A stretch of 64,000 nt of DNA from Allomyces arbusculus (Eukaryota > Blastocladiomycota > Blastocladiomycetes > Blastocladiales > Blastocladiaceae), in assembly GCA_027604705.1 (NCBI GenBank), contig JADHYV010000040.1:129007-193006 (forward strand), written 5' to 3'. Below are positions 7,123 to 38,243 of this stretch, piece after piece (the stretch's first letter is position 1; every line of letters starts with the position of its first letter). The notes under the pieces are model-generated. The model was not told where the DNA came from. It saw only the letters and a program-made list of their open reading frames with translations, and did no database searches. The translations under genes were made by a program, and so were the position numbers.

Positions 7123-7391
7123 AGAGAAATCCCACGAGGCGTGAAATGGAAGTATCGATCATGAGACGCTGTCAAAGAGGGCTAGGGACACGATCGATAT
7201 CCAGTCCCACGGCCGGCGAAGTCCGCACGCGCAGGCCGGTTAAGTCCGCTCATGGCGGCACTTCAAACTACAGACCTGGATCGAACGTCGCAAATCATTT
7301 TGGCAAAAGTAATTCGGCTGCAACAAATGTCATGACCTCAAAGCCCAAAGCGGCCCATCCACGATCCAAGTCCACATAGTCTCCACCTCGA
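7123..7391. other. Spacer between ASNSD1 duplicate and attractin-like gene
   Basis: Short region downstream of the attractin-like stop codon. No gene seen. It probably carries the 3' UTR of that gene and eroded upstream flank of the ASNSD1 duplicate. Confidence 0.4.
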
Positions 7392-10795: not shown

Positions 10796-11366
10796 GGCGC
10801 TGAATCGTTTTCCTCGGTGCGTTGGTTGGTATGGCAGGTTGACGGCTGTGGATACCAGATTTTCGAGCCTGTCGCAAGCTGGAACTGGCGCAGCGCAGCC
10901 AGTCCTGGAGCATGCTTTTGACATTCTGCTGGCAGTCTGGTGCAATCTCGGCGGCTGCAGCACGGAATAGCGAAGACATACGTTCACGACGAGATGATGC
11001 AAGGCAAGCAAATTCAGTAATAACCCTCAGTCCAGATCGCGATCACATGTGGCGACAAAGGAGACGTGCGGTGCTTGAGCCCACATCGCCCAACGTTTCC
11101 GCTCACTTCGCCAGAACTTCAGTGTGCCGCTGCCGTCTGCACCGTCTCCACAGACGACCAAGCGTCGAGACGACAACGTCGGCGACGGCTTTCAATTTAC
11201 TTGTCGGCAAGGCAAGACGACGAGCATCTGCAACCATCAGCACCCCCAGCAAGCAACAGCGAACCAGCCAGCACCTTGGATCCATCTTCCAGCTTTTTCA
11301 TACCGTGTCTCCCGCGCAAACACCATTTGACACCATCGACTCAAGCTTACCAGCAACTACACGACC
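10796..11366. other. Divergent promoter region
   Basis: About 570 bp between the start codons of the attractin-like gene (minus) and the lipase-like gene (plus), so it must hold both promoters. No TATA-like or repeated element stands out. Confidence 0.5.
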
Positions 11367-14136: not shown

Positions 14137-17100
14137 ATGGACCCGAAATACGTGCTGACCGCGTGGGTCGATGCGACTTTGCACGTGCTGACGACGCGTG
14201 CGAGAAGCAAGGACGTGTCGGTCGAAGCGCATGAGCAGGCTCGTGCGGTCGCCGATGCCGCCGCCGTCGCGCCAGATCTCGTCGATTTCCTGCTTACGGG
14301 CGAGCTGCTGTGCCTCGTGTGCCAGGCCGTGCACCCGGCCCTGGTGCCGCGACCTATTCGGATCGCGCCGTCCATGTTCGGCGCGCTCGAGAACTTGACC
14401 ACGTTTGCCAAGTACAGATGGCCTTGAAAGTGTTCGATTATTTTCGCACGAAACCGTGGGCTGACTGTTCTCTGCTTTCCAGAGCATGTCGAGCACTAGG
14501 CATCGATGCCTCGTTCCACCCGCGCGACGCCATCCAGGTGCGGTTGCTGCAGGGAGACAGCTGCTGTCGGTTCCGGAGACTGACGAATCTTCTTGATAGG
14601 GTCGCCACGCCGTTCCCTTTCTCCTCACAGTTTTCGCCTTTGCCCGCACCGTCGCCGCTCGCCACCCGCCATTCCCTGCGCCCTCCGCGACTTTTTCCGC
14701 CATCGACCTCGCCATGCTCGTGCCGACCATGCACCGCATCCGCCCCAACCGTAGTAGTGGTCAACTTTCACTCTCTGGCCCCGGCACGAACCCAGACTTC
14801 TCAGCGCTCCTGACGCGCATGTCGGTTCTCGAGGACCAGCAACAGCGGCTGCTCGACACAGTGCAGGCCATGCAGCAGCACGTGGTCGCGTCGCACCAGT
14901 ACCTCGAAAAGCTGTCGACGAGCATGATCGATGCGTTTTTCGAGTTCCAGGAAACGATGCGGCATGCTCAGGCGGGCAAATCCTCAGTCGCGCCGTTGCC
15001 GGTTTCGCAGCCTGTCTCGGTCCCAGCGTCGCCCATCCTGTCCAACAAACCCGTGGCCACGTCGCAGGAGACGCTCGTGCACCCGACCTCCGGCGATGTT
15101 CCGACCGAGTCAACGACGACCACGCTCTACCGCCCGGCGTCGGCGCCGGCAATTTTGCCGCCACATGTCGCCGAGGCGTGCACAACCAAAGTGGATCGGT
15201 TGCGGCAGAGCGCGATTTATGAGTTGGTCGCGACGGAGCGCGACTTTGTGAGGGATATCGGCATGCTGGTCGCGATCTTGGCGTCTAAGGGCAAGGAGTA
15301 TGACATTGTCTGGGACTTGAACGAGTTTATGGGCAACTTGCCCACGTTGCTCGCCGATCATGAAAAGATGCTCGCTATGCTCGAGGATGCGCTCGTGAAC
15401 CAGCCGGTCGTCGAGGAGCCTGGTCGGCTATTTTTGCAAATGGTATTGCTACTTGCTTGGCCCCCACTCGCGCTGGAACTGAACAGATGCCACATACTCG
15501 CCTTACTAGATGCCATACCTCGCCTCGCATGTCGACTACGCGACACACTACTCGCACGTAATGGCCCCCGCCTTGCAACTCGCGCGCGTCGGCGACTTTT
15601 CCGCCTACCTCGCGACCTTACCCGAGACCCGCGGCCACACGCTCGACAGCCTCCTCATCAAGCCGATCCAGCGCATCACCAAGTACCCGCTGCTCGTGGC
15701 CGAGACTAAGAAGTACGCCTACGAAAACGACCCGGACTACCAGGCGCTCGTGCAGGCGCTCGCGGCGATGCGCGACTTGACCGACCAGGTCGACCAGAGC
15801 TCCAAGACCAACTCGGTACACCAGGAGAAACTCGCCCTGTTCTCAACGATGGTCGCTGGGTTTGCCGACCTAGACCTGAGTCCGGCATGCCAGTACCTGC
15901 GCGAAGGGAGCGTCGATCGGTGGTGTGCATCGGCGAACGTCGCGCAGCCGACGTACTGGATCCTGTTCTCGGAACGGCTGCTCGTGTGTAAACCCGGCTC
16001 GTCGAAGAGTTTCCGGAAAAAGTACGAGGTGTTGCTCGATTTGGTGCCGTCGAAGGTGGTCGTGCATGCGGTCGCGTCGCAGCAACCCGGTGCGCGGTTC
16101 CCGTGGCTGTTGGAGTTGATTCCCGTTGGGAAGGGGAGCAAGGGCGAGACGGACCCGCTCGTGTTTGGGTTTGCGACCGAGCAGGAATTGCAGGCGTGGA
16201 CACGCGGGCTGGAGAAGGCGGTTGCGCTGCAGTTGCAGAAGGGGGTGTCGTCGCTGATGCGCCGGTCCAAGTCGAACCGCAGCTTGTCGATGTCGATGAA
16301 GAAGCCGTGGGCACGGTTCATGGTGCGTTTTCGCTGGGATCGCGGTGGGGGTTGGGTGTGGATGATGGTTAACGTCTGCGTCGTGTAGGACTACGGTAAG
16401 ACAAACTCGAGCAAGGCGACGCTGCCCGAGCCTCCGGTCCGTCCTGATAATCTATTGTTGATTCCGTGGCGATCAGTGCACTCACGTCCCCCCTCTCCCT
16501 CAACCTCACCGACAGGTCAACCCACGCTCGCTCCCCGACAACGCCGAACTGATCGGGTTCACGCTCGACGACCACTACCCGGCGACCTCGCACGACCTCG
16601 GGTTCCAGAAACACACCTTTTTGCGCATCACGCACGCCGAACGGTCGGACGTCCTGAAAGTCGCCATGAACCGCGTCGTCGGCCTCGTTCCGCGACACCT
16701 CGTACAGATCGTCAAGGACATGCCGCCCGTGCGGTACGCGCGCATCCTTGCTGCGTGCCAGTCGGATATGGCGCTCACCTGGATCGAGTACGCGCAGTGC
16801 TGTATTGTGAATATGACGCCGACGCCGCTCGTGGCCGCGGCGAGTGCGGCCGCGGCGGTGGGGGCGGCGCGGAATGCGGGTGGGGCGGGGAATTTGACGT
16901 CGGTGACGGAGAAGCAGGATGCGGTCGCATCGCGGCGCGCGTCGGTCGTCGTAGCGACCCCTTTGCCGCCGACCGTCGCGGCCGCTCCGGCCGCACCTGC
17001 TGCCCCCGTCGCAGCTCCTGTCGCATCTGTCCTCCCGCGCTCTGACGTAAGCGACATCGTCGACGCCGACCTACCGCGGTCCGATTCGCACCCTACCCCC

Positions 17101-17385
17101 GCGACCGTGGCCGCGCGGCACATGCGCAAGACTGGTGCAAACGGGCGTCACGCAGCGCGGAAAAGCGATATGTCGCGCGGATCGACCAAAGCAAGTCTAG
17201 AAGGGGCCGGCGCGGGGGACGTGGTGACGGAGCCCGTGCCGAGTGCTGACGGCTGGTTCCGAGTCGTGAAGCCCGGCCAGCGCGACTATTATTTCCGCCG
17301 CGAGACGGGGGAGACGCGCTGGGAGCCGCCGTCGCCCGTGGTGGCGGTCGTGGAGCCGGGAGTCGAGGTGACGGTGTTGAGTTGA
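14137..17385 (+). CDS. Rho-family GEF with CH, DH, PH and C-terminal WW domains (Cdc24-like)
   Basis: Predicted guanine-nucleotide exchange factor for a Rho/Cdc42 GTPase. Exons: 14137-14411, 14483-14537, 14600-15442, 15510-16322, 16388-16435 and 16516-17385 (2904 nt, 967 aa). The small fifth exon is the least certain: a single longer intron also keeps frame. A single calponin-homology domain fills about residues 1-140 (LVDFLLTGELLCLVCQAVHP, FHPRDAIQGRHAVPFLLTV). The DH domain (about 307-510) has ELVATERDFVRDI and the signature LLIKPIQRITKYPLLVAE; the PH domain is about 519-630. A conserved-looking region of unknown fold follows (LGFQKHTFLRITHAERSD), then an Ala-rich linker and a WW domain (about 927-955, two Trp 22 residues apart, then EPP). 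CH-DH-PH matches fungal Cdc24, which ends in PB1; here no PB1 is visible. Confidence 0.8.
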
Positions 17386-17581
17386 GTGGTGAGGGACTGA
17401 TGTGAACGGAACTGGGTTAAATCACAGACTTGGACCTCGCAGATTTTTTTTCTTGTTGTTGGTCTCTAAGAGCGGCGTCAGTTTCCTCGGTGCGGGCAGA
17501 CGGCCGAAATGGTCACCCATCCTTCACAATGCTTGTCCATAAAGAGACCGCACACGTGCTGCACAAGCCCCAAAAATCCAT

Positions 17582-19326
17582 TTACTCTCGATCCAGCCGA
17601 GACGAATAATCAAAGTCGGTCGTCCTCGACGGTCCGGCCAAACTTGCCCCGCCAGCATACGACGACGAAGCCCCCATACCCTCAGAGCCCTACATTCCGG
17701 TCGCGTCAGGTCAGTAAATGGCGACCGCAGCAACAGAGCCGAACGGAACCGTACCCAATGAATGTAGTTTGGTGTCTCGCACGCCTGGTACTCGTCAATG
17801 AGTTCTTGCACGACGCTGCGTGAGTCGTCAAACTCGTCGGTGCCGTCGGCAAACAGGGCGAGCTTCTTGTACTGGTCCATGAAGGCGTTGCGCTTGCGCA
17901 GCTTGTCGTACTGGTCGCACGTGCGCTTGAAGAGCTAGTTGGTGCAGAAGGAGTGGTTGGGTGGTGAGTTTATACGAGAAGCAAGATAACGGTTCAAATG
18001 AGCAAAAAGACAGGCGTACCGCGGCAACCGACGTGTGGTTGGCCAGCATGAGCCCGGACACGCGGTGCGACGTCTGAATATAGGGCGACTTCTTGGACAG
18101 CGCGACTTGAATACTGGCGGGCCCCCACGGAATGAAATTGGCGAGTTTGCGCTCGCGAATACGCAGCAACGACTTGTGCACTTCGGTCGGGTCGGCCTCG
18201 CCCTGAATGATGTTGAGAATCGAAATGTAGCACCAACGCTTGTTTTCCTTGTTGCCCGTGGAAATCATCTTGTTCTTGGGCTGCAGGAGGCGGCGCATCA
18301 CGTCGAGCACCGTCGTCTTGCGCACGTTCTTGGCCTTTTCCACGTTCTCCGATGCAAACGGCGTATACGCCGTCGTCAGGAAATGGCATCGCGGCGTCGG
18401 GATCAGCGAGGCCACCATGCCCACGAGGTCGTTGTTCATGTACCCCGGGTAACGCAGCGTCGTGGTACTCGCCGACATGACCGTCGACACGAGCTGGTTG
18501 GTCTGCGTGAATGTCGGGTTGGTGATGTGCAGCTTGTCGGAGGCGATCCGGTTGAGCGCGGCATTGTCGAGGACGACAACCGAGTCGGCGTGCAGCGTGA
18601 GCCGCTTGAGCGAGAGCATTGAATTGTAGGGCTGCACGACCACGTCCGACGTTTCCTCGTTGTTCGGGAACACCGAATACGTCTGCACGAGCTTTTTCGG
18701 GTACCGCGCGTTGAGCTGTTCGAGCAAGAACGAGCCCATGCCCGACCCGGTCCCGCCGGCGATCGAGTGCAGCAGCATGAACCCTTCGAGCGAGTCGGAT
18801 CCGTCGGCCTCGCGGTCAATCATGTCGATGATTTCGTCGCACACTTTTTGCCCGCTCTCGTAACCGTGGCCCCAGTTGTTACCGGCACCGCCGCCGTCAG
18901 TCGACTTGTAGATATTTTCCGGGTTGTAGAGGTTGGCGTAGGGTGACGTGAGAATGTTGTTAATGACGCGCGGCTCGAGGTCGAGGAGTAGCGCGCGCGG
19001 GATGTAGTGCTCGTCGTCGGCCTGGTGGAGCCCAAACGGTGGTCAGTTTGGGTCGCGCCACATTGAGCGCGCTGCTCATGAGCGTACCTGGTAAAAGAAG
19101 ACATCCTTGCGGTCACCGCCCTCGGTCGCAAAGCTCTCGAGAATGCCGTCTTGCGCAATCCCGTGTTCTGCGCACAGCTGCTTCCAAAACTCGTTGCCAA
19201 CTGCATTAAGACGCGGCAGAGCGCGGTGAGCCGGCTTGTTTCGCGCACGCAGCACGCAAACTGGAGCACGTACGTACTCTGGTTCCCACACTGGCCGACC
19301 TGCAGCGTGATCAATTCGCGCGGCAT
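17582..19326 (-). CDS. TUBG: Gamma-tubulin
   Basis: Gamma-tubulin, the microtubule-nucleating GTPase of spindle-pole or basal-body ring complexes. Exons: 19326-19278, 19200-19088, 19021-18020, 17934-17755 and 17689-17582 (1452 nt, 483 aa). Start [23 protein letters not shown]-binding loop [10 protein letters not shown]; gamma-specific blocks [30 protein letters not shown] and [20 protein letters not shown] rule out alpha- and beta-tubulin. The family core ends at PNYIHW; a last 36-codon exon adds a Gly/Ser-rich tail ending RLDRE, longer than the short tails of animal gamma-tubulins. Convergent with the GEF gene, stops 197 bp apart. Confidence 0.95.
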
Positions 19327-23507: not shown

Positions 23508-25011
23508 ATGATGTACGCGCCGCCGCCGCCGCCGCCAATGATGGGCGTGCCGCCACCTGCCAACTACTACGGCCAGAATGCCGTGCCCGCGCCGGCGCCC
23601 GTCCCGATCCCGCCGCCGCAAGCAGCAGCAGCACAGCAGGCACCGCCGCCTGCCGCCGCGCCGGTGCCGGCGGCCAAGGTGAGTAAGCTCGCGCTCTCGT
23701 CAGCATGATCTGTTCGGAGACTGATGCGATGCGCGTATATTTGCTGGGCAGCCCAAGTCTGAAGCGAGCAAGCTTAACGCGTTTCTGGCCGAGTGTTTGG
23801 CGGTCGGGTGCTTGAAGGTCCGACCGGCTCCGTCTCCGCGCTGCTTGAAAAATCGTGCCGTTGCTTACCTCAACACAATTCGCGCAATGAAGGGCTTCAA
23901 GTACTACGAGCTCTACCTGCGCGGCCGCGAGGAGCTGCTCTTGCGCGTCTACAACAACCCGGACGACTTCAAGAAGGTGTCCAAACAACCCAGTTCTATG
24001 AACCTGGCGCGGTCCCAGTATGACACTTCCGCAGTTCAGAAGTCCCTTTCAACTTCCGTCAACTAAACGTAAAGATAATTCTTGAATAGGAGCCGCATCA
24101 TGCTCTCTAACAAGACGCAGAACCGGTACGCTGTGACTCTGTCGCACAACGACTCCGCACGCGTTCACGCGACTAACCCGTAGATTCTGCGATGTCTAGA
24201 CTCATGTGGCAGTCGACCGACGCGCTTCCGCCCGCGAGTCCATGCGATCGCGAGCTGGAAAAGGTGCGCTTGGTCTAGAAAGTGAATGTTGGCGTGATCC
24301 GGAGTACAACTGACGCAAATGCGAAAACGTCCAGGACCCAAGCAAGACAGCATTCTTGATTGCCGGCTACGCGCGGTACAAGTGCCCGTTTGTGTGGGTA
24401 CGTCGCGGTGATCCTCACCTGCATCGTGGTGTGGTTCGTATCTGACGTTCATTTCTCCTCTCCACATGCACAGCTGCGCACGAACCACTCCAAGTTTGCC
24501 AAGCTCACGGAAAACTCCAAGCACGACGACCCGATTAAGCTCGAGTCGGCCGCGGCGTGGAAGACGTCCGGTGCGTTTTTCTTCTCCCCTCCTCGCCATC
24601 CACCTCCACCAGTTCCCTGACCCACTGTTCCCCAGACAACGTGCGCGTCAGCGACATTATCGCCGAAGTCATCGGCATCGCCGTCTCCCCACCGCCGATC
24701 AACCCGTTCGCCGTGAACCACGGGTACTACGACGACCTGCCGCTCGAGGAATCGGTCGTGTGCGTCGGCGCCATGCTCGACTTTTTGCAAAAGATTTACC
24801 TGTCCAACTCGCCGTACGCGCCCGCTGGTACGCTTTTTTCTAATACCACCGCCAAAACAGTAGGGTCTAATCATAAAATTTTGCCGCTGTGTGTGTAGTC
24901 TTCCGCGACATTGAAAAACTCAGCGCGCGGCTGTGGCAGGAAACGGCCGAGCTGAGCACGATGGTCGCGACGGGCGCTGCGTCACCGCGGCGCACGACGG
25001 CCACGGCCTAG
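23508..25011 (+). CDS. Uncharacterised protein with Pro/Ala-rich N-terminus, multi-exon
   Basis: Not recognised. Start MMYAPPPPPPMMG; first exon 23508-23678 ends at a GTGAGT donor. Later exons, placed by phase: about 23753-24014 (SRSQ end), a short one around 24092-24129 (SRIMLSNKTQNR), then blocks LMWQSTDALPPASPCDRELE, DPSKTAFLIAGYARYKCPFV, LRTNHSKFAKLTE, DNVRVSDIIAEVIGIAV with VNHGYYDDLPLEESVV, and VFRDIEKLSARLWQE, ending at TAG 25009-25011. After about 57 Pro/Ala-rich residues the protein looks globular, alpha/beta and cytosolic, with a possible terminal coiled-coil. A 75-nt stretch after VGCLK may be an intron or coding. The density of short introns with good consensus supports a real gene. 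Its stop overlaps the MIX23 stop. Confidence 0.6.
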
Positions 25012-25675
25012 GCGCTCGACAAGGTGAGGTGGCACTTGCGTTTCAGCGCGGTGGCCGTGCGGTCGCGCAGGATGGTTTCGACCGTGGATTCGTTGGCGAG
25101 GAGCCGGTGCTGAAGATGAGCGAGCGAGGGGAAGGGCACTGAGTCAGATGCGTTGGGAGGAGAGAGAACATGAACCAGTGGATTTGAAGAATGTCTGGAC
25201 CTTGCGCTCGAGCTCGGCGACCGTGTTGGACAGGTGGACATTGGTCGGTTCCGTTTCGGCGGCCGTGCGCGCAGTCTGCAACTCATCGTTGATGACCTAG
25301 AAGTCGGAACGTCAGTGAAACGCCGTAGGAGCCGACCGACTGACTGGTGGAGAGGGTTCGCGCGTACTGCAGAACACCTGCTAATCCACTCGGAGCGGCG
25401 CTGGTAGACGGCTAGCAGCTGGTCACGGAAGTCGGCGCACGGGGCCGTCAGGTCGCCGCGCCTTGGCAACCTGTTGAGCTGGATGTTGAGGTTGTCGTCG
25501 ACTCTGCGGAGCTCCTTGACGACATCTACGTTTCGCTCGATGGCGATATTTCTCGAAATCAGCTTGCGATTGTTACTCATCGCATCCGCGGCAGCTGTGC
25601 AGCATGGTCGCAGGTGGACGTGCCCTTGAAGTAGGAAAAGTCGAGGCAGACGGACGGGTCGAACGGCGTGTTCAT
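25008..25675 (-). CDS. MIX23: MIX23 / Cid2-family mitochondrial intermembrane-space protein
   Basis: Small Cys-containing protein of the MIX23 (CCDC58)/fission-yeast Cid2 family, linked in yeast to mitochondrial protein import and the intermembrane space. Exons: 25675-25624, 25525-25368, 25296-25201 and 25109-25008 (408 nt, 135 aa). The block CLDFSYFKDVVKELRRVDDN followed by LNIQLN aligns gap-free with the animal motif C..F..F....K..R.IDD.....LN. The four Cys (SVC, APC, SRC, RKC) fit the family's spaced cysteines. The end STVETILRDRTATALKRKC matches the conserved C-terminal helix. Joining exons 1 and 2 in this alignment requires a GC donor (AAGG|GCACGT), so a GC-AG intron is inferred. The Met at 25675 fits homologues; an upstream in-frame Met adds a hydrophobic stretch. 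Confidence 0.78.
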
Positions 25676-26187
25676 CGTGGTGTGTTGCTTGTTGGCCGAG
25701 GAGGAGCTGGAGGTGAGGAGAGTGGTGATCAGCAAACGCAACAGCAGATAACAATCCCTGCCCATTGCCGTCGCGAGCCACGTGGTTTCTACCGCACCTG
25801 TTCCCCTCGTCGTTGCAACGCATGCTCTCGCACGCTGCTTTGCAAAGAGCAGATGCAAAGAACCACAGCCGTGCGCCTCATCAACCAGAAAATGGGCACT
25901 CTGACACAGTGGAGGCAGCAAACGACAACGACGAGCGGCGTCGGGAACAGCAAGACCAGACTTAGCGTGCAAGGGCGAACCCGTGCAGAAAGCGTAACAA
26001 GCAGCAACAGCATTAACCGACCAAGGGCCGAGAACGCATCAACCAACCGTCAACCTGGGGCATCTCGCTAGCTCAGTGAAAGGACGGCTCCAGAACAGCT
26101 GCACGTTCTTGACCCGGCCCGCAGATCTGTCGAGTTTTATTGCGTCAAGGCACAATTATCGAGCGCACCACACCATTTATCAGCATC
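25676..26187. other. Divergent promoter of MIX23 and first M50B copy
   Basis: About 510 bp between divergent start codons. No distinct motif recognised and no sign of another gene. Confidence 0.45.
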
Positions 26188-27235
26188 ATGGCCCCGCCTC
26201 CAGTCCTGCACCTCATCGCACGAGCAGCCATCGACGTGGCCGCGGCTGCCAATGCCTCGACGACGACGACAAATATGACCATCAACGGCGGCAACACGAC
26301 AGCGACCAACCATACTTCGTCGCCACAACCACCACCTTTCGATTTTGGCGTGATCTTCAACGGCACCGACGCACCGAGGGTCGGCCAGATGCTTCTCGAC
26401 AAGCTCAGTCACCCGTCGATGCAAATGATTCACGTGTTCGAAATCATGGGCGCCTATTTCTTTATTTTCGCGGTGTAAGTGATTCTGCTCCGCTCGAGAA
26501 GAATGATGGTGAGCGTCGCGATCTGACCGCGACGGACGGACTGCGTCGATAGCTTATGGAACATGCCGTACCTTGGCCGTTTGCTCGACCCGCTGAAACT
26601 CATCGTCGTGGCCTTCCACGAATTCTCGCACGCGATTGTCGGCAAGTGCACGGGCGCGAAAATCGAGTCCATCGAGGTCAACCCGGACCAGGGCGGTGCG
26701 ACTCGATTGCGCGGCGGGAATGCGTGCCTTGTCTTGCCTGCCGGTTACATTGGCTCGTCGATTTTCGGCAGCTTGCTCGTCTTTTGCTCGTTTGACCTGC
26801 TCGCGTGCAAAGTCTCGGCGGGCATTGTCGCATTCGCGCTCCTCTGCACGCTGTGGTGGGCGCGCGACAATTTCACGCGCTGGCTCACGGGCCTGTGGTT
26901 CCTGCAAATCGTGCTTCTTTGGGTGTTTGATCACGGGTCTGGGCTCAAGGTGTTCACAATCGGCGTTGCGTCCATGTCGATTACCTACAGTTTTTGGGAT
27001 ATGGTCGAGGATTTGATTCGGCGACGCGTGAACCACTCGGACGCTTCCATTTTTGCCAAGCGTATGCTGACTTTTCCCTTGAAACAGGAGCAGCAACGAG
27101 AATTTATTGACTGACCATTCTGCGTCGCGCTTAGGTTACGGGTGCACGCCGCAGTTTTGGGGCGTGTTTTGGTTTTTCATTTCGCTATTGATCCTCGCGT
27201 TTGCGGTCATCATGGCGATGCTCACCTGGCCGTAG
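26188..27235 (+). CDS. M50B-like membrane protease, array copy 1
   Basis: First of six tandem paralogues of the fungal peptidase M50B-like family (intramembrane zinc metalloprotease fold). Exons 26188-26474, 26553-27061 and 27135-27235 (298 aa). The N-terminal third is variable and Asn/Thr-rich with several NxT/S sequons, so probably lumenal. The conserved core in exon 2 has LWNMPYLGRLLDPLKL, the zinc-site motif HEFSH in FHEFSHAIVGKCTGA, then GGATRLRGGNACLVLPAGYI, several TM helices, TLWWARDNFTRW and YSFWDMVEDLIRRRVNHSDA. Exon 3 encodes the last TM helix (CTPQFWGVFWFFISLL). Both HExxH histidines and the Glu are present. Proteolytic activity of this fungal family is not established as far as I know. 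Confidence 0.88.
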
Positions 27236-27769
27236 TGATTTGTTTTGTGATGGTTCACTCTTAGCCCTCTGTTGTCGCGTCGCACCATGTACCATATCTA
27301 CGCCACTCTGCCAATGCAAACCATTTCTTTCGGCTTTCGAATCTCCTCGTCGTGCTTGTTGTTGTCCGCCGTATCTTGTCATTCGCCTCCTCGGATTAAC
27401 CGTGGCCAGGAACACTGGCGCACACATCAGTTTTCGGCGCGCGTTGCTCGAGCAAGGACCTCATTGGCGCCCGCTCGACTTTGAGAAGAACAATCGATAT
27501 GATCGCAAGTTCGGCTCAAACAGGTGCGCAACTTGCAGCTCTGCCCGCCATCCGCGTGTCTGGCTTTCCTTGGCGTGCGCGCCAGGGCGCTGTTCACCCT
27601 TGCTCGCCTTGACCTCCGGCAAATCCTTTCCCACTAGCATGAGCGGCGCCACTTTGGACCGGTTCCCCGTGCGTTTTGGCGGCCCCTCCTCACGATTCTC
27701 TCTCCAAGACACGCAGCACGACGTGCAGCTGCTCTACCTCTCCCGCAAGCCCATGGTCCCACACGAGGC
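27236..27769. other. Spacer between array copies 1 and 2
   Basis: About 530 bp, similar in length to the other inter-copy spacers. Holds the 3' flank of copy 1 and promoter of copy 2. No extra gene seen. Confidence 0.5.
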
Positions 27770-28797
27770 ATGGCGCCATACCCAACACTGCATCTCGTTG
27801 CCCGCGCCGTCATGGCCGCGGCTGCGAACTCGAACGCGACCTCGGCAAATGAGACAACAGCTGCAGCATTCCAGGCTTCGACTCAACCACCATTCGACTT
27901 CAGCAACGTGCAGTTTGTCAACGGTACCGATGCGCCCAGGCTTGGCGAGGTGCTGCTCGCCAAGCTGAGCCATCCGTCGATGCAAATGATCCACGTCTTT
28001 CAAATCATGGGCATTTACTTTTTTGCCTTTGCCATGTGCGCATCTCAAGCCTCCTCGCTCGTCTGCTCTCGATCACGACTGATACTGTTACGACACTCCA
28101 GCCTGTGGAATATGCCGTACGTCGGCCGAATTCTCGACCCGCTCAAGCTCATTGTCGTGACGTTCCACGAGTTTTCGCACGCGCTCGTCGGCAAGTGCAC
28201 GGGCGCCAAAGTTGAGTCGGTCGAGGTCACGCCCGACCAGGGCGGCGCAACGCGGTTACGTGGCGGGAATGCGTGTCTGGTGCTCCCCGCCGGTTATATC
28301 GGCTCGTCCATCTTTGGCAGTATCCTCGTTTTTTGCGCGTTCGATTCGACTGCGAGCCAGATCGCTGCGGGAATTGTCACTCTCACGATGCTCATGACGC
28401 TCTGGTGGGCTCGCGACAACTTCACGCGCGGATTGACCGCGTTCTGGTTTGTCATCGTGACCATCGCGTGGGTCATAAAGGGCGGCGCCGCGCTGAAGGC
28501 CTTCATTTTGGGCGTGGGCACCATGTCGATCACATACAGTTTTTGGGACATGGTGGAGGACCTGATTCGGCGGCGCGTCAACCATTCAGATGCGGCCATC
28601 TTTGCCAAACGTGCGCTATGTTTCACGGCTTAATTCATGAGCTGGTGTCGACCCAGGGGGGTGTACTGACGTTGCCGTTGCTTGGTCGGACCGTAGGTTA
28701 TGGGTGCACGCCGCAATTTTGGGGCGTCTTTTGGTTCTTTATATCGCTCTTGTTCCTCGCGTTTGCAGTCGTCATGGCCATGCTTCTGTGGCCATAA
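27770..28797 (+). CDS. M50B-like membrane protease, array copy 2
   Basis: Exons 27770-28035, 28102-28610 and 28697-28797 (291 aa); exons 2 and 3 are exactly 509 and 101 nt, as in copy 1, with identical intron phases. Core motifs intact: FHEFSHALVGKCTGA, GGATRLRGGNACLVLPAGYI, TLWWARDNFTRG, YSFWDMVEDLIRRR and CTPQFWGVFWFFISLL. The N-terminus is closest to copy 1, both carrying NGTDAPR, KLSHPSMQMIHVF and an IMG motif, so copies 1 and 2 look like the most recent pair. In copy 2 the end of TM core 2 reads AFDSTASQIAAGI instead of the SFDLLACKVSAGI of copy 1. No defects seen. Confidence 0.88.
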
Positions 28798-29320
28798 CTG
28801 TCGACGTTGTGGTTGAGCGGTTTTTTTGCATTTCTGAAGCGTCCTCGATCAAGCCATGCGTTCTCATCCTTCGCCAAAAATTGATCCATTCCTCTCTACC
28901 CTGGTGAGCGTTTTCCCTGGCGTTTATGATTCGCGGCAAGTCCCCGCTAGAGAGTGATGACCGCTGCCAGAGGTTCTTTACCGCTGCCGTCGTGGCCATG
29001 GAATCGCGTCTTGCAATTGTCTGGCCGGAGCTAGCGCGAGTCGGGCCGGAGTGCCAGGGCGAGGCAACAGGGAACCCCCGGCAAAACCACACCTGTTCAG
29101 CAACAGCCTCAAAAACAACCCATGCCCATCAACGTGAAGAACAACAATGAGCATCGCGTAAACGGCTTGACGACACACGCCCCGGCCCTGGTGCTGCTGG
29201 AAACGTCGCCACCCACGCGCGCGCGGGGTGGAGAGCCATAGTGCGGGAGAGCCCCACCGCTGCTCTTCCTCTTTCCCCGAAGTCGTTTGCGACACTAATA
29301 GCATAACTGCAGCACGAACC
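28798..29320. other. Spacer between array copies 2 and 3
   Basis: About 520 bp containing the 3' flank of copy 2 and the promoter of copy 3. A GCCAGGGC string near 29051 resembles part of the element shared upstream of copies 4 and 5. No gene. Confidence 0.4.
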
Positions 29321-30435
29321 ATGGCGCCGTATCCAATACTTCATCTGGCCGCACGCGCCGTCATTGCCGCGGCGATGGCCGCCAACGCAAGCTCAACCGG
29401 GTTTGCGAATTCGACGTCGACGGCCACGAATGGCACGGCCAGCAACAGCACGGCAATTTCAACAGCCGTCAACAGTTCCGCACCAGCAGCGACAGCCAAC
29501 AGCACCGTCGTGAACGGCACAGTAACAACCAACCATACCCTTCCATCACACGTCGGCGACGTCTTCAGTGGCACGAGCGGGCAAGCGCTCGACCAAGTCC
29601 TGCTTAACAAACTGCGTCATCCGTCGCCAGCCATCATCTCGGGCTTCGCTCAAATAGGACTCTACTTTGGCATCTTTTTGATGTTCGTTGTGCTTCGTTC
29701 TGCGATTTTCGCCGATAGCTACGTCTGACCGCACAACGTGACTTTGCCAGTCTTTGGAATCTCCCACGTTTCGGCCGCATGCTCAACCCGATCAAGCTCA
29801 TCGTCGTCGCCTTCCACGAATTCTCGCATGCGCTTGTCGGTAAGTGCACCGGCGCGAAAATCGAGTCGATTGAAGTCAACCCGGACGAGGGTGGTGCAAC
29901 TCGGATACGTGGTGGGTCGGCATGTCTCGTACTCCCAGCCGGCTACATTGGCTCGTCCGTTTTTGGCAGTTTGCTTGTGTTTTGCTCGTTCAACCCCATT
30001 GCGTGCAAGGTGGCCGCGAGTGTCGTGGGCCTCTCGCTCCTGGCAACATTATGGTGGGCTCGCGATAATTTTACGCGCGCGCTGACCATTTTCTGGATCG
30101 CTGTGCTCGTACTTGAGTGGGTGGCCCGCGACGGAGTTTGGCTAAGCTCATTTGTCATTGCGGTTGGCACCATGTCGGTGGCCTACAGCTTTTGGGACAT
30201 GATCGAGGATTTGATTCGACGGCGCGTCAATCATTCGGACGCGGCCATTTTCGCGGAGCGTGCGTTCATGTTCCAGTTTTTGATTTCCGCGCTGCAACGA
30301 GCTGACCCGCGTGCTTGTGCTCATCCCTCAATAGGCTATGGAGGCACGCCGCAGTTCTGGGGCGTGTTTTGGTTTTTTATTTCGTTGCTCATCTTGGCGT
30401 TCGCCGTGATCATGGCCATGCTCGTGTGGCAATAA
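29321..30435 (+). CDS. M50B-like membrane protease, array copy 3
   Basis: Exons 29321-29682, 29751-30259 and 30335-30435 (323 aa), the longest copy because of an expanded N-terminal region rich in Asn, Ser, Thr and Ala with many NxS/T sequons (NASST, NSTST, NGTAS and so on). This looks like a heavily glycosylated lumenal stalk if secreted-side. Core motifs intact: FHEFSHALVGKCTGA, GGATRIRGGSACLVLPAGYI, TLWWARDNFTRA and YSFWDMIEDLIRRRVNHSDA. Exon 3 reads GGTPQFWGVFWFFISLL: the Cys before TPQFW found in the others is Gly here. Core sequence groups it with copies 1 and 2. Confidence 0.87.
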
Positions 30436-30810
30436 CATACCAGTGCAGTTTGTATTGCCAAACATACAAGCCATTCTTTCTCACGCAGTCCGCTGCATCC
30501 GTGCACTTTCTCTTCACTTTCTCCACCTCGTTGGTTTACGCTCGCGCTCCATTGCGCGGAGAGCGTCGGTAGAACGCCAACGCACCGATCAAGCATGAGA
30601 GTTCTTCGAATTCGTCGTGATTTCCCTGGAGAACTGGCCACACCTGAAGCCGCCTCACGACAAGACTCCCCGATTTCCAGAAGCGATTCCTCCACCAATC
30701 GGCACGTCTCCCTGTGCCTCTGCAGCCACCATCACACCCCACATTGGACGGCATGACCAACAGTCTGCACTGAACAGTCTCTCAGCACTCCATTCGTGTG
30801 CCTCGCTCCC

Positions 30811-30827
30811 GCCAGGGCCCAGGGAGT
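30811..30827 (+). promoter_or_regulatory. Upstream element shared by array copies 4 and 5
   Basis: The string GCCAGGGCCCAGGGAGT occurs here and again at 32415-32431. In both places it lies about 70 bp upstream of a TATA-like sequence and about 150-190 bp upstream of the start codon. It could be a retained cis-element or merely sequence carried along by the gene duplication. Confidence 0.4.
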
Positions 30828-30877
30828 ACGACAGTCCGTCCTGCAGCCACCAAAGCCGCCGACCCACGACTTCACGG

Positions 30878-30884
30878 TATAAAG
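30878..30884 (+). promoter_or_regulatory. Putative TATA box of array copy 4
   Basis: TATAAAG in an otherwise GC-rich context, 80 bp upstream of the copy 4 start codon. Position and sequence fit a core promoter; not proven. Confidence 0.45.
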
Positions 30885-30963
30885 AACTCTTGGCCGCCCA
30901 TCGATTACCCTGTTTACCCCGCTCATCCTTGGTACCCACCCGAGCGCTGTATTGGGCTTGACA

Positions 30964-31933
30964 ATGGCACCACATCAAATCTTGCATCTCGTCGCGCGCA
31001 CTGTCGCAAAGGCAACCGTTTCGACTTTATCCGAAATCGCCCCCACTGATGCAAATGAGACCATGTCGACAATTCCTGGCGGCAGCTTGCTCAGCAAGCT
31101 AACTCATCCCTCGATTCACACGACGCGCGTGTTCATTTTGCTCGGCATCCATTTTCTGTCATTTCTCGTGTCCGTGCCGTCCCTCTCTCGCGTATGACCT
31201 AGTGCTTCATGACATAATTTGACGGCGACAAAATTGCACATTTAGCCTGTGGAACATTCCATATCTTGGACGAATTCTCGACCCACACAAGTTGCTCGTC
31301 GTGGCCTTCCACGAATTCTCACACGCCCTCGTCGGCAAATGCACGGGCGCGGTAATTGAATCCATCGAGGTCACGCCTGACCAGGGCGACGCGACGCGGT
31401 TGCGCGGCGGCAATGCTTGCCTCGTGCTCCCTGCTGGCTACATAGGCTCGTCCGTCATTGGCAGCGCGCTCATCTTCTGCACGTTCAACTTGATGGCGTG
31501 CAAGATCGCGGCCGGGTTCGTGGCGCTGAGCATGGTTTTGACGATGTGGTGGGCGCGCGACCACTCATTCACGCGGTGGTTGACGCACTTTTGGCTCGCC
31601 GTGCTCGTGTACGAGTGGGCCGTGTTTGAGTACGGTCCGCAGTTCTACGTGATCGCCATGGGCGTTATGTCCGTGACCTACAGTTTTTGGGATATGGTCG
31701 AGGATTTGATTCGGCGGTGCGTCAATCATTCCGACGCGGCGATCTTTGCAAAACGTGCGTGTCTCTTTGACTCGGCCAGTCACAATTCGCGACGATGAAT
31801 TGACTCTTTGTGCTCCTGCCCACGATGATGCAGGCTACGGGTGCACACCCCAGTTTGGGGCGTCTTTTGGTTTTTCATTTCGCTGTTGATTTTGGCCTTG
31901 ACTATTGTCTTGGCCATGCTCTTTTGGCCGTAA
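30964..31933 (+). CDS. M50B-like membrane protease, array copy 4 (3' end frameshifted)
   Basis: Exons 30964-31169, 31246-31754 and 31834 onward. N-terminal region is shorter and has few sequons. The core is intact: FHEFSHALVGKCTGA, LPAGYIGSSVIGSALIF, TMWWARDHSFTRW, the YGPQFYVIA block and YSFWDMVEDLIRR, though RRRVNHS reads RRCVNHS. In exon 3 the frame is lost: copies 1, 2 and 5 have CCGCA(A/G)TTTTGG, whereas this copy has CCCCAGTTTGGG, one T short. Translation then ends at a TGA about 31890 after PQFGASFGFSFRC, removing the final TM helix; the old stop is at 31931-31933. Either a recent loss-of-function change or a sequencing error in a T run. Confidence 0.75.
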
Positions 31934-32170
31934 TCATGGTTATTTGGCTTTCATTCCTGAACCTCACATCTCACATCTGTCTGCCGCGCGCATCGGCACC
32001 TTTTGGACCATAAATTTCTCGCCACATTCACTCATGACAATTCGTCAGCGTAAATGATCATGTCCATTTCTCATTGGATCCAATGCCTGCATTCGTGCAA
32101 TTGATCGTTTTTGCCTGGCCAGGAGCAAAGGGGTTGTCGGACTAAATTTGTAACCCCGCGCTGTTGGAGG

Positions 32171-32198
32171 CTGCCTGACAGGCAGTCTGACAGGCAGT
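32171..32198. repeat. Tandem 12-mer overlapping a palindrome
   Basis: CTGACAGGCAGT occurs twice head-to-tail (32175-32186 and 32187-32198). The first unit overlaps the near-perfect palindrome CTGCCTGACAGGCAG (32171-32185). Compact enough to be a protein-binding site upstream of copy 5. Confidence 0.6.
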
Positions 32199-32414
32199 CT
32201 CAATCCAGTTCCGAGCGTCAGATTTCCAGAACAGCCCGCCTCCTTCCCCGCCCCATCGTCGGCCAACTCCCAGCTCTTGCCAAGCGCTCGCTGGAGCCAC
32301 CCGCAACCACTCGCAATGGGCTCCGTGAACAACAACTCGCTGCACTGACGGACCAGCGCGCGCTCCACTGTGTTTGCACTTCACACCGCTGCAACAACCT
32401 TCCGCAACCCATAC

Positions 32415-32431
32415 GCCAGGGCCCAGGGAGT
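32415..32431 (+). promoter_or_regulatory. Second copy of the shared upstream element
   Basis: Same GCCAGGGCCCAGGGAGT string as at 30811-30827, at a similar distance from the TATA-like sequence. Confidence 0.4.
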
Positions 32432-32487
32432 GCAGCCCACTCTTTTCCTGGCGTTCCTGCAGCTCCATCGCAACGGCAGCACCTCGC

Positions 32488-32494
32488 TATATAT
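32488..32494 (+). promoter_or_regulatory. Putative TATA box of array copy 5
   Basis: TATATAT in GC-rich surroundings, about 110 bp upstream of the copy 5 start codon. Confidence 0.4.
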
Positions 32495-32603
32495 CTGCCG
32501 TGTTCCTCGTATCGTTTGGCGCCGGTTTGTGCGCCCTCCGACTCTTGTTTCACCGACCGCTCGTTCCCCAACTGCCGCCCCAACTGCCGCGAACATTTTG
32601 ACA

Positions 32604-33560
32604 ATGGCACCACATCCGCTCATTCATCTCGCCATCGCAAATGCAACCGTCTCCGCAATATCAGCATCGACCAAGAATGAGACAGATGCGACAATCCCAC
32701 CGGACAGAACCCTCAACCTATTTTCTAACATGTGGAAACCGCCAATGGGCACGACCCGCATTTTCGAAATTATGGGCTGGCACCTTCTGACGTTCCTCAT
32801 GTCCGTATCGCTCGTTCGATTTACCACGCTTCTGCTGTCACTGATGCCAGGAAACGTTGCAGCGTGTGGAATATCCCGTACCTTGGTCGGCTACTCGACC
32901 CGTACAAGTTGCTCGTCGTGGCCTTCCACGAATTCTCACACGCATTCGTCGGCAAGTGCACGGGCGCAAAAATTGAGTCCGTTGAGGTCAACCCGGACCA
33001 GGGCGGCGCGACGCGGTTACGCGGCGGGAACGCGTGCCTCGTCCTTCCCGCTGGGTATATTGGATCGTCAGTCATTGGCAGCGCGCTCATCTTTTGCTCG
33101 TTCAACGTGCTCGCTTGCAAGATTGCTTCTTGCATCGTCGCATTAAGCATGATCCTGACCATGTGGTGGGCGCGCGACCACGCCTTCACACGGTGGTTGA
33201 CGCTCTTTTGGCTTGCCACGCTCGGCTACGAGTGGATCGTGTTTGCCGACTATGGCCCGCAGTTTTACGTGATTGCAGCGGGCGTTATGTCGGTGACCTA
33301 CAGCCTTTGGGACATGGTCGAGGATTTGATCCGACGGCGTGTCAATCACTCCGACGCGGCCATTTTTGCCAAGCGTACGTATTGCGGTCGTGCTGGCTGG
33401 ACTATGATTACATCCGGCTGTGGCCCCCTTTCCCTGCTCATTCCGTCGATGTTGAATAGGCTACGGGTGCACGCCGCAGTTTTGGGGCGTGTTTTGGTTT
33501 CTCTTCTCGCTGCTGATTTTGGCGGGCACCATCACTTCAGCGATTTTTGTTTGGTATTAA
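32604..33560 (+). CDS. M50B-like membrane protease, array copy 5
   Basis: Exons 32604-32800, 32863-33374 and 33460-33560 (269 aa), the shortest whole copy. Exon 2 is 512 nt, one codon longer than in the other copies (FADYGPQFYVIA). Zinc motif intact in FHEFSHAFVGKCTGA, followed by GGATRLRGGNACLVLPAGYI, TMWWARDHAFTRW, YSLWDMVEDLIRRR and CTPQFWGVFWFLFSLL. The C-terminus ends in IFVWY instead of the usual MAMLxWP. Groups with copies 4 and 6 by LDPYKLLVVAFH, SVIGSALIF and the YGPQFYVIA block. Short N-terminus with a single NET sequon. Confidence 0.87.
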
Positions 33561-33679
33561 CGCGGCTTGTCTAAATGTCAGTTTTCCTTGACGATTTTGC
33601 TTGCTTCCCAATGTGTCAACGCTGTCCACCGTTTGTTTCTCTGGCCCCTCGCTCCTTGTCGAGCACGCGCAAGTCAGCA

Positions 33680-34620
33680 ACTTGAACATCTCTGCCTTGA
33701 GCTTTGGTGACTGCAGCGTCGTCATTCGCAATCGACGCAATATCGGCTCCGCCTGGTATCAAGCTGGTGAACAAGCTAACTCATCCGTCAGCAACCACAG
33801 GACGCGTCTTCGAAATCATGGTCATGATGTTTTGTTCTTCAATGTGTGTGTGCCTCCATTTCTGAAGTCTCAAGAGGAATGCCCACAGCGATTTTCTGAC
33901 TGACAGGAGGATGAGCGCGCTGGTTTGTGAAAGATGCCATGCTTTGGCCGGCTGCTCGGCCCATACAAGCTGCTCGTCGTTGCTTTTCACAAATTTTCGC
34001 ACGCCCTCGTCGGAAAGTGCACGGGTGCAAAAGATTGATTCGTTGAGGTCACGCCTGACCAGGGCGGCGTGATGTGGTTGCATGGAGGAAATGCATGCCT
34101 CGTGCTGCCCGCCGAGTATATCGTTTCGTCAGGGATTGGCAGCGTACTCGTCTTCTGCTCGCTCAACTCGCTCGCTTGCAAGATCGCTGCCAGGGTTGTG
34201 GCGCTGAGCATGATCATGACGCTCTGGTGGGCGCAGGACCATGCCTTCACGCGCTGGCTGACCGTCTTTTAGCTGGCCATCAGGACGTGATCACGTATGA
34301 GTGGGCCGTGTTCCCCACCCTTGGCCCTCAGTTTTGGTGACTTCGGTTGCAACCATGCCGGTCATCTACAGTTTCTGGGATGTGGACGTGGAGGACTTGT
34401 TTCGACGGCACGTCAGCCCTTCAGATACGGCCATTTTCGCTAAGCGTGCGTGTCGCTTTGTTTGCAGACCGCTTTGAGCTCGTCGGTATTTACTGACTCT
34501 TCGATATGCGTTGACTGTGATGGTTTATGGTTACACGCCTGCACGCTGCAGTTTCGGGGTGTTTTTCGTTGCTGATTCCTGATTGCTATTGTGTTTATGG
34601 CCATGCTCATTTGGCCGTAG
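33680..34620 (+). pseudogene. M50B-like membrane protease, array copy 6 (pseudogene)
   Basis: Recognisable remnant of the same three-part gene. Exon 1 remnant: LVNKLTHPSATTGRVFEIM (about 33770-33825). Exon 2 remnant from about 33934: MPCFGRLLGPYKLLVVAFHK, FSHALVGKCTGAK, then GGNACLVLPAEYIVSSGIGS and TLWWAQDHAFTRW. Exon 3 remnant near 34535-34620. The zinc motif HEFSH has become HKFSH, losing the catalytic Glu. In-frame stops follow GAKD and TVF, and the frame is lost in the YGPQF region and exon 3. By sequence it belongs with copies 4 and 5. Clearly non-functional. Confidence 0.88.
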
Positions 34621-34802
34621 TAGAGCATCGTAAGGCGTATGTTGTCTTTCCGAGCAATGAAATTTCGGGCACTAGTTGAGACCATGGTCATCAATATCTG
34701 TGTGTCCTGTTTCCTTTGGCGAATGTCCAAGTCGAAGTTATCGAAAGTCTCGTTTGTCGTCACAATGAGACAGTCCTACCCAACATTAATGCTCGTTATC
34801 GT

Positions 34803-35256
34803 TCATTCAACTTTCTCCACCTTGCCCGCAATGCGCCCTCCCCTATCCTCGAGTTGCGGCTCATTGAGCTTGGCCAGCTTCCCCATGAAAATCTCGGCCT
34901 GGCGGTTCTTACCAAGCCGTTGCAGCACGTCAATGAGCCCGGCGAGCACAGCACGCGTCACTTCATTGACTGGCGACAATGCAAGGGCGCGACGATAACT
35001 CGGTTCCGCGGACGCCAGGTCGCCCGATTGCGCCTGTAGCGTCGCGAGCGTCAAGTAGGCTTCAGCGTGCGTGCGGCGCTCCGGCCGTGGCGAGCGCGCA
35101 TTATCCATGACGGAGCACACTGTCCGCGAAGAAACCAACCAGAGTCAACTGTAGTTTTCTGCTTGGCGGGAATGGAGTGGGTACGCACTTACCATAGGCC
35201 GCGGCGGCGACCGCGGATGCGGCGCTGGGGGCGGACCCACCGGTGGGCGGTGCCAT
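34803..35256 (-). CDS. Small TPR-repeat protein
   Basis: Two exons, 35256-35193 and 35119-34803 (381 nt, 126 aa). The first exon encodes a small, Ala/Gly-rich N-terminus (MAPPTGGSAPSAASAVAAAA). The second encodes at least one clear tetratricopeptide repeat (AYLTLATLQAQSGDLASAEP, YRRALALSPVN) and a second helical pair (VLAGLIDVLQRLGKNRQAEI), so it probably acts as a small protein-binding adaptor. No signal peptide or membrane segment. I cannot assign it to a named TPR family. Head-to-head with the Mtc6-like gene, start codons 198 bp apart. Confidence 0.7.
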
Positions 35257-35454
35257 TGTGCAACAAGTCGGGAGGTCGGGGCACGCGCTGTGCAAAGGCG
35301 GAGATGATTTGCTAGTGAAGCAAGTCAAGACGAGGACGGCCTCCAACGGCAGTGGATCGCTTTCAGAATCAAGGCGAAGCAACAAACATCGCACGCCAAA
35401 AAGGTCCCTCGATTTGATGCAAGGCCCGCCTTTCCTTCAACCTCCACGACGACG

Positions 35455-38243
35455 ATGCTGCGACCACCACGACGACCAGCACCGTGCGGCACCTGCTGCA
35501 ATGTGCGCAATGAAGCGCCCCATCCGCCGGGCCGACAACAGCAGCGGTCTGCACGATCTGCGCCGACAGCTTCGTCTTCCAAGCGGCCAAGGGCAAGTTC
35601 ATCCATAATCGCAGCGGCCACGGTCGTTGTCCTTGCGCTCGCAACAATGGCCGTTCATGCAACTACCAACCCCGAGCCTGCAAGGAGCGCACCCGCCAAT
35701 GCTCTTTCCGACGGATTACCGCCCGTCGCGCTTGGTGCCGCACCGCTCACGGGCTTTCTCGACGCTGCAACCAACCCATGGGCGCAGTACGCGCTCTCGT
35801 TCTTTGCCTCGGCCCCCGCAACACCGTCTACCGGCACAAGTACGGCCACTCCCGATGCCACCGCGACGGTTGTACACGACGACGCTCTGGTCGCAGCCGC
35901 GCGCGCGGCCGCTGTGGCCCTGCGCTCGCAGCGCGAGCTGCAGCTGACGCTGCCCATTGCGCAGACCCTGCAGCCAGCCGTCGACTTGACAGCGTTCCAT
36001 TTTGCGGGAGGCGCCAACGTGTCGACGGCGCGACTTGATGCGGTGGCTACAGCACTTGTGCTCGGTGCGCGCCGGATTGCAGTTGACCTGTTTTGGGACG
36101 CAAATCGCGCGCGATGGCAGCTGTGCCCCGCGGAGTACCCGCACCCGATGCCGGCCGCCGTGAACGCGACGCGGTTTTTGCCGGGCACGAACGACGTCTT
36201 GCTCGACTTGCCTGTGTCCCGTGCGCGATCGCTGGGATTGGATTTGCCGAACGGCGGGCGTGGAGTCCTGGTCGCGCCGTCAGCTCCGTCATGGTCGTCC
36301 CCTAGCGATCCGGAGACGGCCACGGTCGTATGCCACGCCGTCCCGGGCGCCGACTGGCCGCGATTCGCACAGGAAATCAAAGAGTATGTCGGGTCGCTGC
36401 GCAGCGCGTTTGCAGCCACGTTCCACGTCGTCGAGTTGCGGTTGCACGACTTGCAAGTCGCGCCGCGCGCAACGGATCCGTCTGCGAATGCGCCTCTCAC
36501 GCCGACCGTCACGACGTCGATTGCGGTCGTGAACAATGTCACGTCCACGTTCACTTCAACCATCATGCCATCGGCGGCAGCAACCGAGACCGTGCCCAAT
36601 GTCGACCCGCTCGGCGTGTTCCTGACGGCGCAATTCGGGTCGGCCCTCCTGACGCCGGTGAACCTCGCGCGCGCGTCCGGGGACGAGGTCGCCACGGACA
36701 CGTCGCCGCTCGTGCAGCCGGCGGGAATGGCCAACCAACCGATCAACGGGTTTGAGAATGCGCTTGCCGTCGACGCCAAGTACAATGCGCCCGGTGAAGC
36801 CCCGCTACTCCCGACTCTTTTCGACCTGATCCGTGTCCAGCCACGTCGCCTGATTGCGTTTACGGTCGCGTCCGATTCGGTCTGGTCGCGCCCGCCCACG
36901 GGGTTGAACTGGACAACCGAGTCAAACGTACTGTTTCGCCGCTCCGTGCTCGCACCGGTACTCGCCGATAACTCGTCGGCGCCCGTCCTGACGGTTCCCG
37001 GCAATGGGCTGTCGGGCCTGCCGACGGTTCCGGGTACCGACCTTGCACTCGCGCCAAGCCTATCACCTGCCGCAACCGCTGCAATGCGCAGCGTCCTCGA
37101 TTGCCCGGACCTGCTCGGGCGACACCTCCGCCCCGCCGGGACCGAGTCGATGCCCTTCCAATCAACCACTCCCGCGGGCGACAACCTGACGGCGTCCTTT
37201 CTGCAAGTCGCCGACACCCGCAGCGAGCTGTTCACCTACGACATATCCCGCGCCGTTGCCGGGTGCGGGTACGCCCCTCGACTCGCGTCGACCGCGGCCA
37301 ACCTGTCGTCCCCCGCAACTTCGCTCGCCTCGGCGATGCTCGGCAGCATCTGGTCCTGGCACACGCTACAGCCCATCAACTCGACCGTGCACAACTGCGC
37401 GCTTGCGTCGCTCTCCCTCGCGTCCCGGTCCGCACCCGTACATTCGGACGCGCCGGACTTCAAGTTACCTGACGCGAACACCTCCTTTTCCTCCTCCACC
37501 TCGCCCCCAAACACAGGCCCGCGCTGGGTCGCCACGCGGTGCCTCGATTTGTATTACACGGCGTGCCAGTCGACAGCGGACCCGCACGTCTGGGCCCTGT
37601 CGTCAACACGGTACGCGTGGCCGGAAGCGGCTGCGCCCGCACCGACCGCGGGCCGCGCGTGTCCGGACGGGTTCACCTTTGCGGTGCCGCGGACGCCGTT
37701 GCAAAATTGGATGTTGGGCAGGGTGATGGCGACGAAGGGCGTGGATGCGGCGTGGGTATACTTTGCGGACGCGAGTACCGACGGGTGTTGGGTCGTGGGG
37801 TCGGCCAAGTGCGCGTATTCCGGGCCGGTACGCTCTTGTTTTGTTCCGCGCGGGAAGGATGTGTGAATTTGGATTGACCGATGGCTGCGTGCAGGACACC
37901 GAGCAAGTGCAGCAAATCATTGCTGTCTCGCTGGGCGCGGGCTTAATTGTGCTGATTGTCGTGGCCGTGTTCGTCTGGGTCAAGTGCCGCCGCTACCTGC
38001 GCGTGTCCAAGATAGCCAGGCGGCAGAATATGGTCAAGAAGCGGCTCGCAGAGCTGGAAGAAGCGACCGTGCCGGTACGTGGCATTGAATTCCTCGGCTT
38101 TGCAAGAGTTCGCTTTCCTTACTTTGATTTCGGTAGTTTTGAGCCAATGCGCCCAGCTGCCCTCCCTTCCTCCCGCTTTCCAATCGTCCTTTTGCTGTGT
38201 ACTTCAGAATTTATACCCCCGCAGCACCTACCGTCGTTCATAA
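35455..38243 (+). CDS. MTC6: Mtc6-like type I membrane protein
   Basis: Exons 35455-37827, 37895-38074 and 38208-38243 (2589 nt, 862 aa). Residues about 49-66 form a hydrophobic signal/anchor (SIIAAATVVVLALATM); an alternative Met at 35647 would shorten this. The ectodomain is large, Thr/Ser-rich with NxT/S sequons and scattered Cys. It includes LDAVATALVLGARRIAVDLF followed by W and LCPAEYP, the pattern I recall from fungal maintenance-of-telomere-capping protein 6 (TIM-barrel-like N-terminal domain). A single TM helix (about 799-820, LGAGLIVLIVVAVFVW) precedes a short basic tail (RRYLRVSKIARRQNMVKKRL) ending NLYPRSTYRRS. Family call is by remembered similarity and topology. Biochemical function is unknown. 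Confidence 0.62.

Follow-up and report, generated by a model that had tools for sequence, protein, structure and literature searches.

A 64,000-nucleotide stretch of the Allomyces arbusculus genome (hereafter the window; positions 129007-193006 of contig C40, JADHYV010000040.1, in an assembly of 25.9 Mb and 197 contigs) contains, at window positions 26188-34620, six tandem copies of one gene, all on the plus strand. The gene belongs to the family PF13398 (Peptidase M50B-like), and the sequences mark the cluster as an old, partly decayed expansion of a gene family by birth and death. The cluster probably encodes intramembrane metalloproteases of the secretory pathway which have diversified outside the active site.

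The exons of the copies were reconstructed by splice-site alignment (Table 1). Copies 1-5 have three exons each, with introns of phase 2 and then phase 1 at the same alignment columns in 5/5 of these readable copies, and their proteins are 60-75% identical. Exon 2 is 509 nucleotides (nt) long in copies 1-4 and 512 nt in copy 5. A first-pass annotation, made from the letters of the DNA, had given the starts of copies 1-5 listed in Table 1, the common exon structure with its intron phases and these exon 2 lengths, and all of this was confirmed. It had also given exon 3 as 101 nt, which is correct for copies 1, 2, 3 and 5 but not for copy 4, where it is 100 nt. The six copies that it described are indeed present in tandem, but the description overstated their condition: judged from its reading frames, the cluster comprises four intact genes (copies 1, 2, 3 and 5, open to the end), one damaged gene (copy 4) and one pseudogene (copy 6).

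The missing base in exon 3 of copy 4 lies in a TTT run where copies 1, 2, 3 and 5 have four T or an equivalent base. The frame is lost past TPQF and a short shifted tail leads to a stop at 31887-31889, giving 256 codons in which the final hydrophobic segment is gone. Copy 4 also has Asp at Gly144 (copy 1 numbering, used for all residues below), a position occupied by Gly in the other five genes of the genome and in 18/18 bacterial loci. Since exon 2 is still constrained relative to copy 5 (ratio of non-synonymous to synonymous substitution rates, dN/dS, 0.10), the damage to the frame is probably recent, or else a homopolymer sequencing error. Copy 6 aligns as a pseudogene because there is no ATG at the corresponding place, HKFSH stands for HEFSH and AEYIVSS for AGYIGSS, and both a frameshift and a TAG codon interrupt it. 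Its PF13398 score is 62.8 bits, with two internal stops.

Family assignment and active site

Exon 2 of copies 1-5 scored 118.8-150.7 bits against PF13398 (expectation value, E, 3e-34 to 6e-44), where the curated cut-off is 26 bits. All five readable copies are far above this cut-off, so the M50B-like assignment of the first-pass annotation stands, and on the profile scores membership of the cluster in PF13398 is secure. HEFSH and GYxGS were each found in 5/5 readable copies, and HExxH also in a related gene on contig C25. Downstream, Gly150/151 are conserved. Asp259 is present in 6/6 genes of this genome and in 18/18 bacterial loci with full-length matches; Asp245 is present in the same 6/6 genes and in 16/18 bacterial loci, the other two having Glu. 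Hydrophobic stretches above a Kyte-Doolittle threshold, the measure used in place of a dedicated topology program, number several per copy, the number varying from copy to copy.

The site-2 proteases (S2P/MBTPS2; M50, PF02163) resemble the cluster in having HExxH and in a weak profile similarity around it. However, copies 1-5 scored 12.3-15.9 bits against PF02163, under its cut-off of 27.2, and the NxxPxxxxDG (NPDG) motif of site-2 proteases is absent from copies 1-5 and from the C25 gene. A classical S2P was ruled out on these two grounds. The description of M50B-like proteases in the available part of PMC5249076, with HExxH, no NPDG and conserved downstream Gly and Asp, is one that copies 1-5 fit (HExxH, no NPDG, Gly150/151, Asp245 and Asp259, with Asp for Gly144 in copy 4). 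The apicomplexan M50B-like protease PBANKA_1362500 of that paper has the same traits (PFAM13398, HExxH, no NPDG, downstream Gly and Asp), the likeness being one of description and not of sequence; it differs in that, in the part available, a single P. berghei gene is named, whose function was not tested there. Fungal M50B-like members are named in the parts of PMC8156185 and PMC10223446 that were available.

Relatives of the cluster were sought in collections of prokaryotes, phages, plasmids and viral contigs. Bacterial relatives amounted to 30 loci in all, 18 of them near-full-length (L020, L022-L038), and 14 were used in the alignment and trees; L020 and L038 (GHIG) and L023 and L035 (GYPG) failed the motif filter and were left out of the 14, so that counts of GYxG and HExxH among these 14 hold by construction. 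A later alignment added the four omitted loci, picked by HExSH, together with L019; L019 and L020 are one and the same gene. The counts for Asp245, Asp259 and Gly144 cover all 18 loci. Bacterial PF13398 members have in common with the cluster the profile match, HExxH, the downstream glycines and the conserved Asp; Tyr161 is replaced by His in L020, L038 and L019. Scanning of GTDB contigs gave at least one relative (L019), the viral contigs scanned gave none, and the one match in PHROGs was at chance level.

Remote similarity was examined with a profile of 19 sequences, six from this genome and 13 of the 14 bacterial loci. Compared with 177635 distinct PDB sequences at E ≤ 10, it gave a single match, MJ0392 (3b4r), a zinc metalloprotease of the archaeon Methanocaldococcus and an archaeal site-2 protease, with HExxH aligned on HExxH. 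In a profile-profile comparison with bacterial M50 proteins (28/30 M50 loci, those that passed a comparable motif filter), 27 columns around HExxH aligned with a probability of 94.3. The copy 3 stretch alone had seven matches to PDB sequences (E 0.74-1.6), no protease among them. In two AlphaFold models, each from six alignment rows, the helix with HExxH is followed by a hairpin of two strands and then by the helix with GYxGS. This helix-hairpin-helix order fits the three-helix S2P core, the hairpin being of low confidence. Foldseek comparison with viral models gave no match at E ≤ 0.001 among the 50 of 198 matches listed. An S2P-like mechanism is likely for the cluster proteins.

Age, copy number and the variable N-terminus

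Within the cluster, pairwise synonymous divergence of exon 2 (dS) is 0.83-2.58, near saturation, and dN/dS is 0.08-0.20, the pattern of a catalytic exon under purifying selection. For the computable pairs dN/dS was 0.24-0.48 in the N-terminus and 0.23-0.71 in the first hydrophobic segment. It exceeded 1 in no computable pair or region, dS being near saturation and several values not computable, and positive selection was thus not detected. With a lowest exon 2 dS of 0.83, no recent gene conversion is apparent. Introns and flanks aligned at z -1.8 to 3.6 relative to shuffled sequence, the exception being the upstream regions of copies 4 and 5 compared with each other (z 5.9).

These values bear on an objection to the tandem expansion noted in the first pass, namely that a single gene was duplicated by the assembly or between haplotypes. 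Such an artefact would fit copies that are adjacent and on the same strand. It is excluded because exon 2 dS is near saturation and introns and flanks are hardly above shuffled background, and proteins of 60-75% identity likewise contradict it; the probability left to it is negligible.

In a tree with the 14 bacterial relatives, copies 1-5 form a clade apart from the C25 gene (support 92/97), although long branches between two of the bacterial rows and this genome's genes drew a warning from the program, so that the rooting against C25 is less sure than 92/97 would indicate. Copies 4 and 5 group together (99/99), as do copies 1 and 2 (95/93), and copy 3 is placed outside copies 1 and 2 with weak support (83/50). 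The exon 2 tree that includes the pieces of copy 6 groups copies 4-6 with moderate support (84/90). Thus, of the two subgroups by ordered duplications proposed in the first pass, that of copies 4-6 is recovered but that of copies 1-3 is not, although constraining the latter was not rejected (approximately unbiased test, p-AU 0.43).

The PF13398 profile found seven places in the genome, the six cluster copies and one gene on C25. A protein search with copy 1 exon 2 at E ≤ 10 returned only the same genes, in nine matching stretches; as genome searches score the best candidates only, there are at least this many genes. The one dispersed paralogue fits the view put forward in the first pass, that most fungi have a single such gene and that the cluster may be a lineage-specific system. 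The C25 gene lies at about 221800-222924 on the minus strand (complement 1189-2313 of L005, G000:C25:220612-224019), is divided into five exons and encodes a protein with 51-57% identity to those of the cluster. It resembles the cluster in its PF13398 match, HExxH, downstream glycines, conserved Asp and lack of NPDG, and differs in not being in tandem, in two introns that the cluster lacks and in having no long sequon-rich N-terminus like that of copies 1-3. Two of its introns match those of the cluster in place and phase. Because the other two interrupt the region equal to cluster exon 2, either the cluster would have lost two introns or the C25 gene gained two, and no outgroup here decides between these. 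The one PF02163 gene found by the genome search, a separate site-2 protease with HEAGH and NAVPVAGLDG, lies tail-to-tail with the C25 gene at a distance of about 222 bp. This pairing of M50 proteases may be chance or a conserved neighbourhood.

The part of the protein ahead of the first hydrophobic segment is low in complexity and rich in indels within the cluster, and varies in length: 43 amino acids (aa) in the C25 protein, 44-47 aa in copies 5 and 4 and 67-99 aa in copies 1-3. The N-glycosylation sequons in it number 5, 3, 8, 1, 2 and 0 in copies 1, 2, 3, 4, 5 and C25, respectively. Compared with shuffles of the same residues, which keep the composition, copy 1 exceeds the expected 1.0 (P 0.0002) and copy 3 the expected 2.3 (0/5000 shuffles reach 8), and copy 2 is marginal (0.74 expected, P 0.02). 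These sequons hint that the N-terminus of copies 1-3 may be lumenal and glycosylated, which would place the proteins in the secretory pathway; this is the weaker part of the reading.

Sequence surrounding the copies

Table 1. Window coordinates of the M50B-like copies and of two N-terminal extensions.
Feature	Position	Strand	Exons	Length	PF13398 E	Remarks
Copy 1	26188..27235	+	26188-26474, 26553-27061, 27135-27235	298 aa	5.6e-44	HEFSH 26617-26631
Copy 2	27770..28797	+	27770-28035, 28102-28610, 28697-28797	291 aa	1.2e-42	
Copy 3	29321..30435	+	29321-29682, 29751-30259, 30335-30435	323 aa	1.1e-43	longest N-terminal extension
Copy 4	30964..31933	+	30964-31169, 31246-31754, 31834-31933		3.3e-34	damaged
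Copy 5	32604..33560	+	32604-32800, 32863-33374, 33460-33560	269 aa	2.3e-39	
Copy 6, pseudogene	33680..34620 (ends approximate)	+				HKFSH 33988-34002; frameshift near 34031-34040; TAG 34270-34272
Copy 1 N-terminal extension	26188..26409	+		74 aa		5 sequons
Copy 3 N-terminal extension	29321..29617	+		99 aa		8 sequons; 8/9 Asn within sequons

The sequence GCCAGGGC precedes copies 2-5 by 150-270 bp on the plus strand (27581, 29053, 30811, 32415). These are four of its seven matches in the window, and 5/100 shuffles gave as many as seven. Two 8-mers are common to at least four of the five upstream regions, a number that 7% of random draws reach; in the upstream regions of copies 1-5 no 7-mer is enriched and no 9- or 10-mer is held in common. 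As an element common to the upstream regions, GCCAGGGC is suggestive only.

Elsewhere in the window, an open reading frame (ORF) at 1801-3543 on the plus strand has a Slowpoke (calcium-activated potassium channel) RCK domain (E 1.3e-11). Adjoining ORFs at 8066-11026 on the minus strand have an attractin/LZTR1 beta-propeller and CUB and EGF-like domains; should they form a single gene, its architecture would be attractin-like. The window has a second duplicated pair, also diverged, at 5032-5798 and 6324-7158, and the five ORFs compared with Pfam gave no match. Ordinary neighbours lie within 14600-19042 and 24539-37863, namely RhoGEF/PH, tubulin, DUF7886, MIX23-like, TPR and MTC6-like ORFs.

The genome also has two rhodopsin-domain loci, L017 (C7) and L018 (C15). 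The frame of L017 continues into cyclase-like sequence, the cyclase part being recognised by eye, and that of L018 stops before such sequence. Among 60 of 75 matches listed for the rhodopsin stretch of L017 against PDB, a rhodopsin-like 'Phosphodiesterase' and bacteriorhodopsins come first, and none of those listed is named as a blastoclad protein. A rhodopsin-guanylyl cyclase fusion is described in Blastocladiella and chytrids in the available part of PMC9616733. Since there are two such loci, one with a frame running into cyclase-like sequence, the genome plausibly fits a zoosporic fungus.

Interpretation

If the cluster consists of intramembrane metalloproteases, each intact protein would bind zinc via the HEFSH helix and a downstream Asp, Asp245 or Asp259, and would cleave other proteins in the segments that span the membrane. 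In copies 1-3 the N-terminus, rich in sequons, would be glycosylated on the lumenal side. Divergence mainly in the N-terminus and the first hydrophobic segment would alter the choice of substrate or partner, or the location, and leave the chemistry unchanged.

Several results weigh against this account. The 3b4r match has E = 1.2 and is not significant by itself. The AlphaFold models are modest (mean pLDDT, the predicted local distance difference test, 61.0 and 72.6), the hairpin being one of the parts predicted less well. For neither model did Foldseek give a PDB match at E ≤ 0.001, nor was any site-2 protease among the PDB matches listed (50 of 104 and 50 of 51). The sequon excess is not significant in copy 4 (1, P 0.24) or copy 5 (2, P 0.15). 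Lastly, the available parts of PMC5249076, PMC8156185 and PMC10223446 report no activity for any family member. This last point would equally suit M50B-like proteins that bind metal yet act in the membrane without proteolysis, as pseudoproteases or in the manner of chaperones, as would the lack of NPDG and a third metal ligand that is not placed by coordinates. Such a role is quite unlikely given that HExxH is retained in 5/5 readable copies and lost in the pseudogene only, as expected if it is needed.

A possible but doubtful alternative is that the birth and death was neutral, the copies being redundant versions of a single housekeeping gene that have gained no function and whose N-termini are simply unconstrained. 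Two of the six copies are decaying, the N-terminus is low-complexity and indel-rich with relaxed dN/dS, and the absence of any computable dN/dS above 1 agrees with this as well. However, four copies are intact at an exon 2 divergence that allows time enough to lose unused ones, and the sequon enrichment of copies 1 and 3 is above composition-preserving shuffles. At the other extreme, the copies might be intramembrane proteases of the secretory pathway that have neofunctionalised, their specificity for substrates or signals being set by a novel N-terminal domain, lumenal and glycosylated. The cluster would then be the equivalent, in a zoosporic fungus, of regulated intramembrane proteolysis and would operate alongside the genome's classical S2P; this stronger version is unlikely on the present sequences.

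A tandem expansion of M50B-like genes in fungi is the subject of no title found in the open-licence literature, which does not imply its absence from print. In that literature 'M50B-like' occurs together with 'tandem' only in a legume paper, among the titles listed, and no title on such an expansion is among the matches listed for Blastocladiomycota, Allomyces or Blastocladiella (20 of 535, 10 of 219 and 12 of 215).

The cluster adds members, by their sequences, to an already named and little-studied family, PF13398. M50B-like proteins are scarcely studied, and the four intact copies, which keep the catalytic exon constant but differ in their N-termini, together with one paralogue elsewhere in the genome, provide internal controls for the substrates and target choice of the family.

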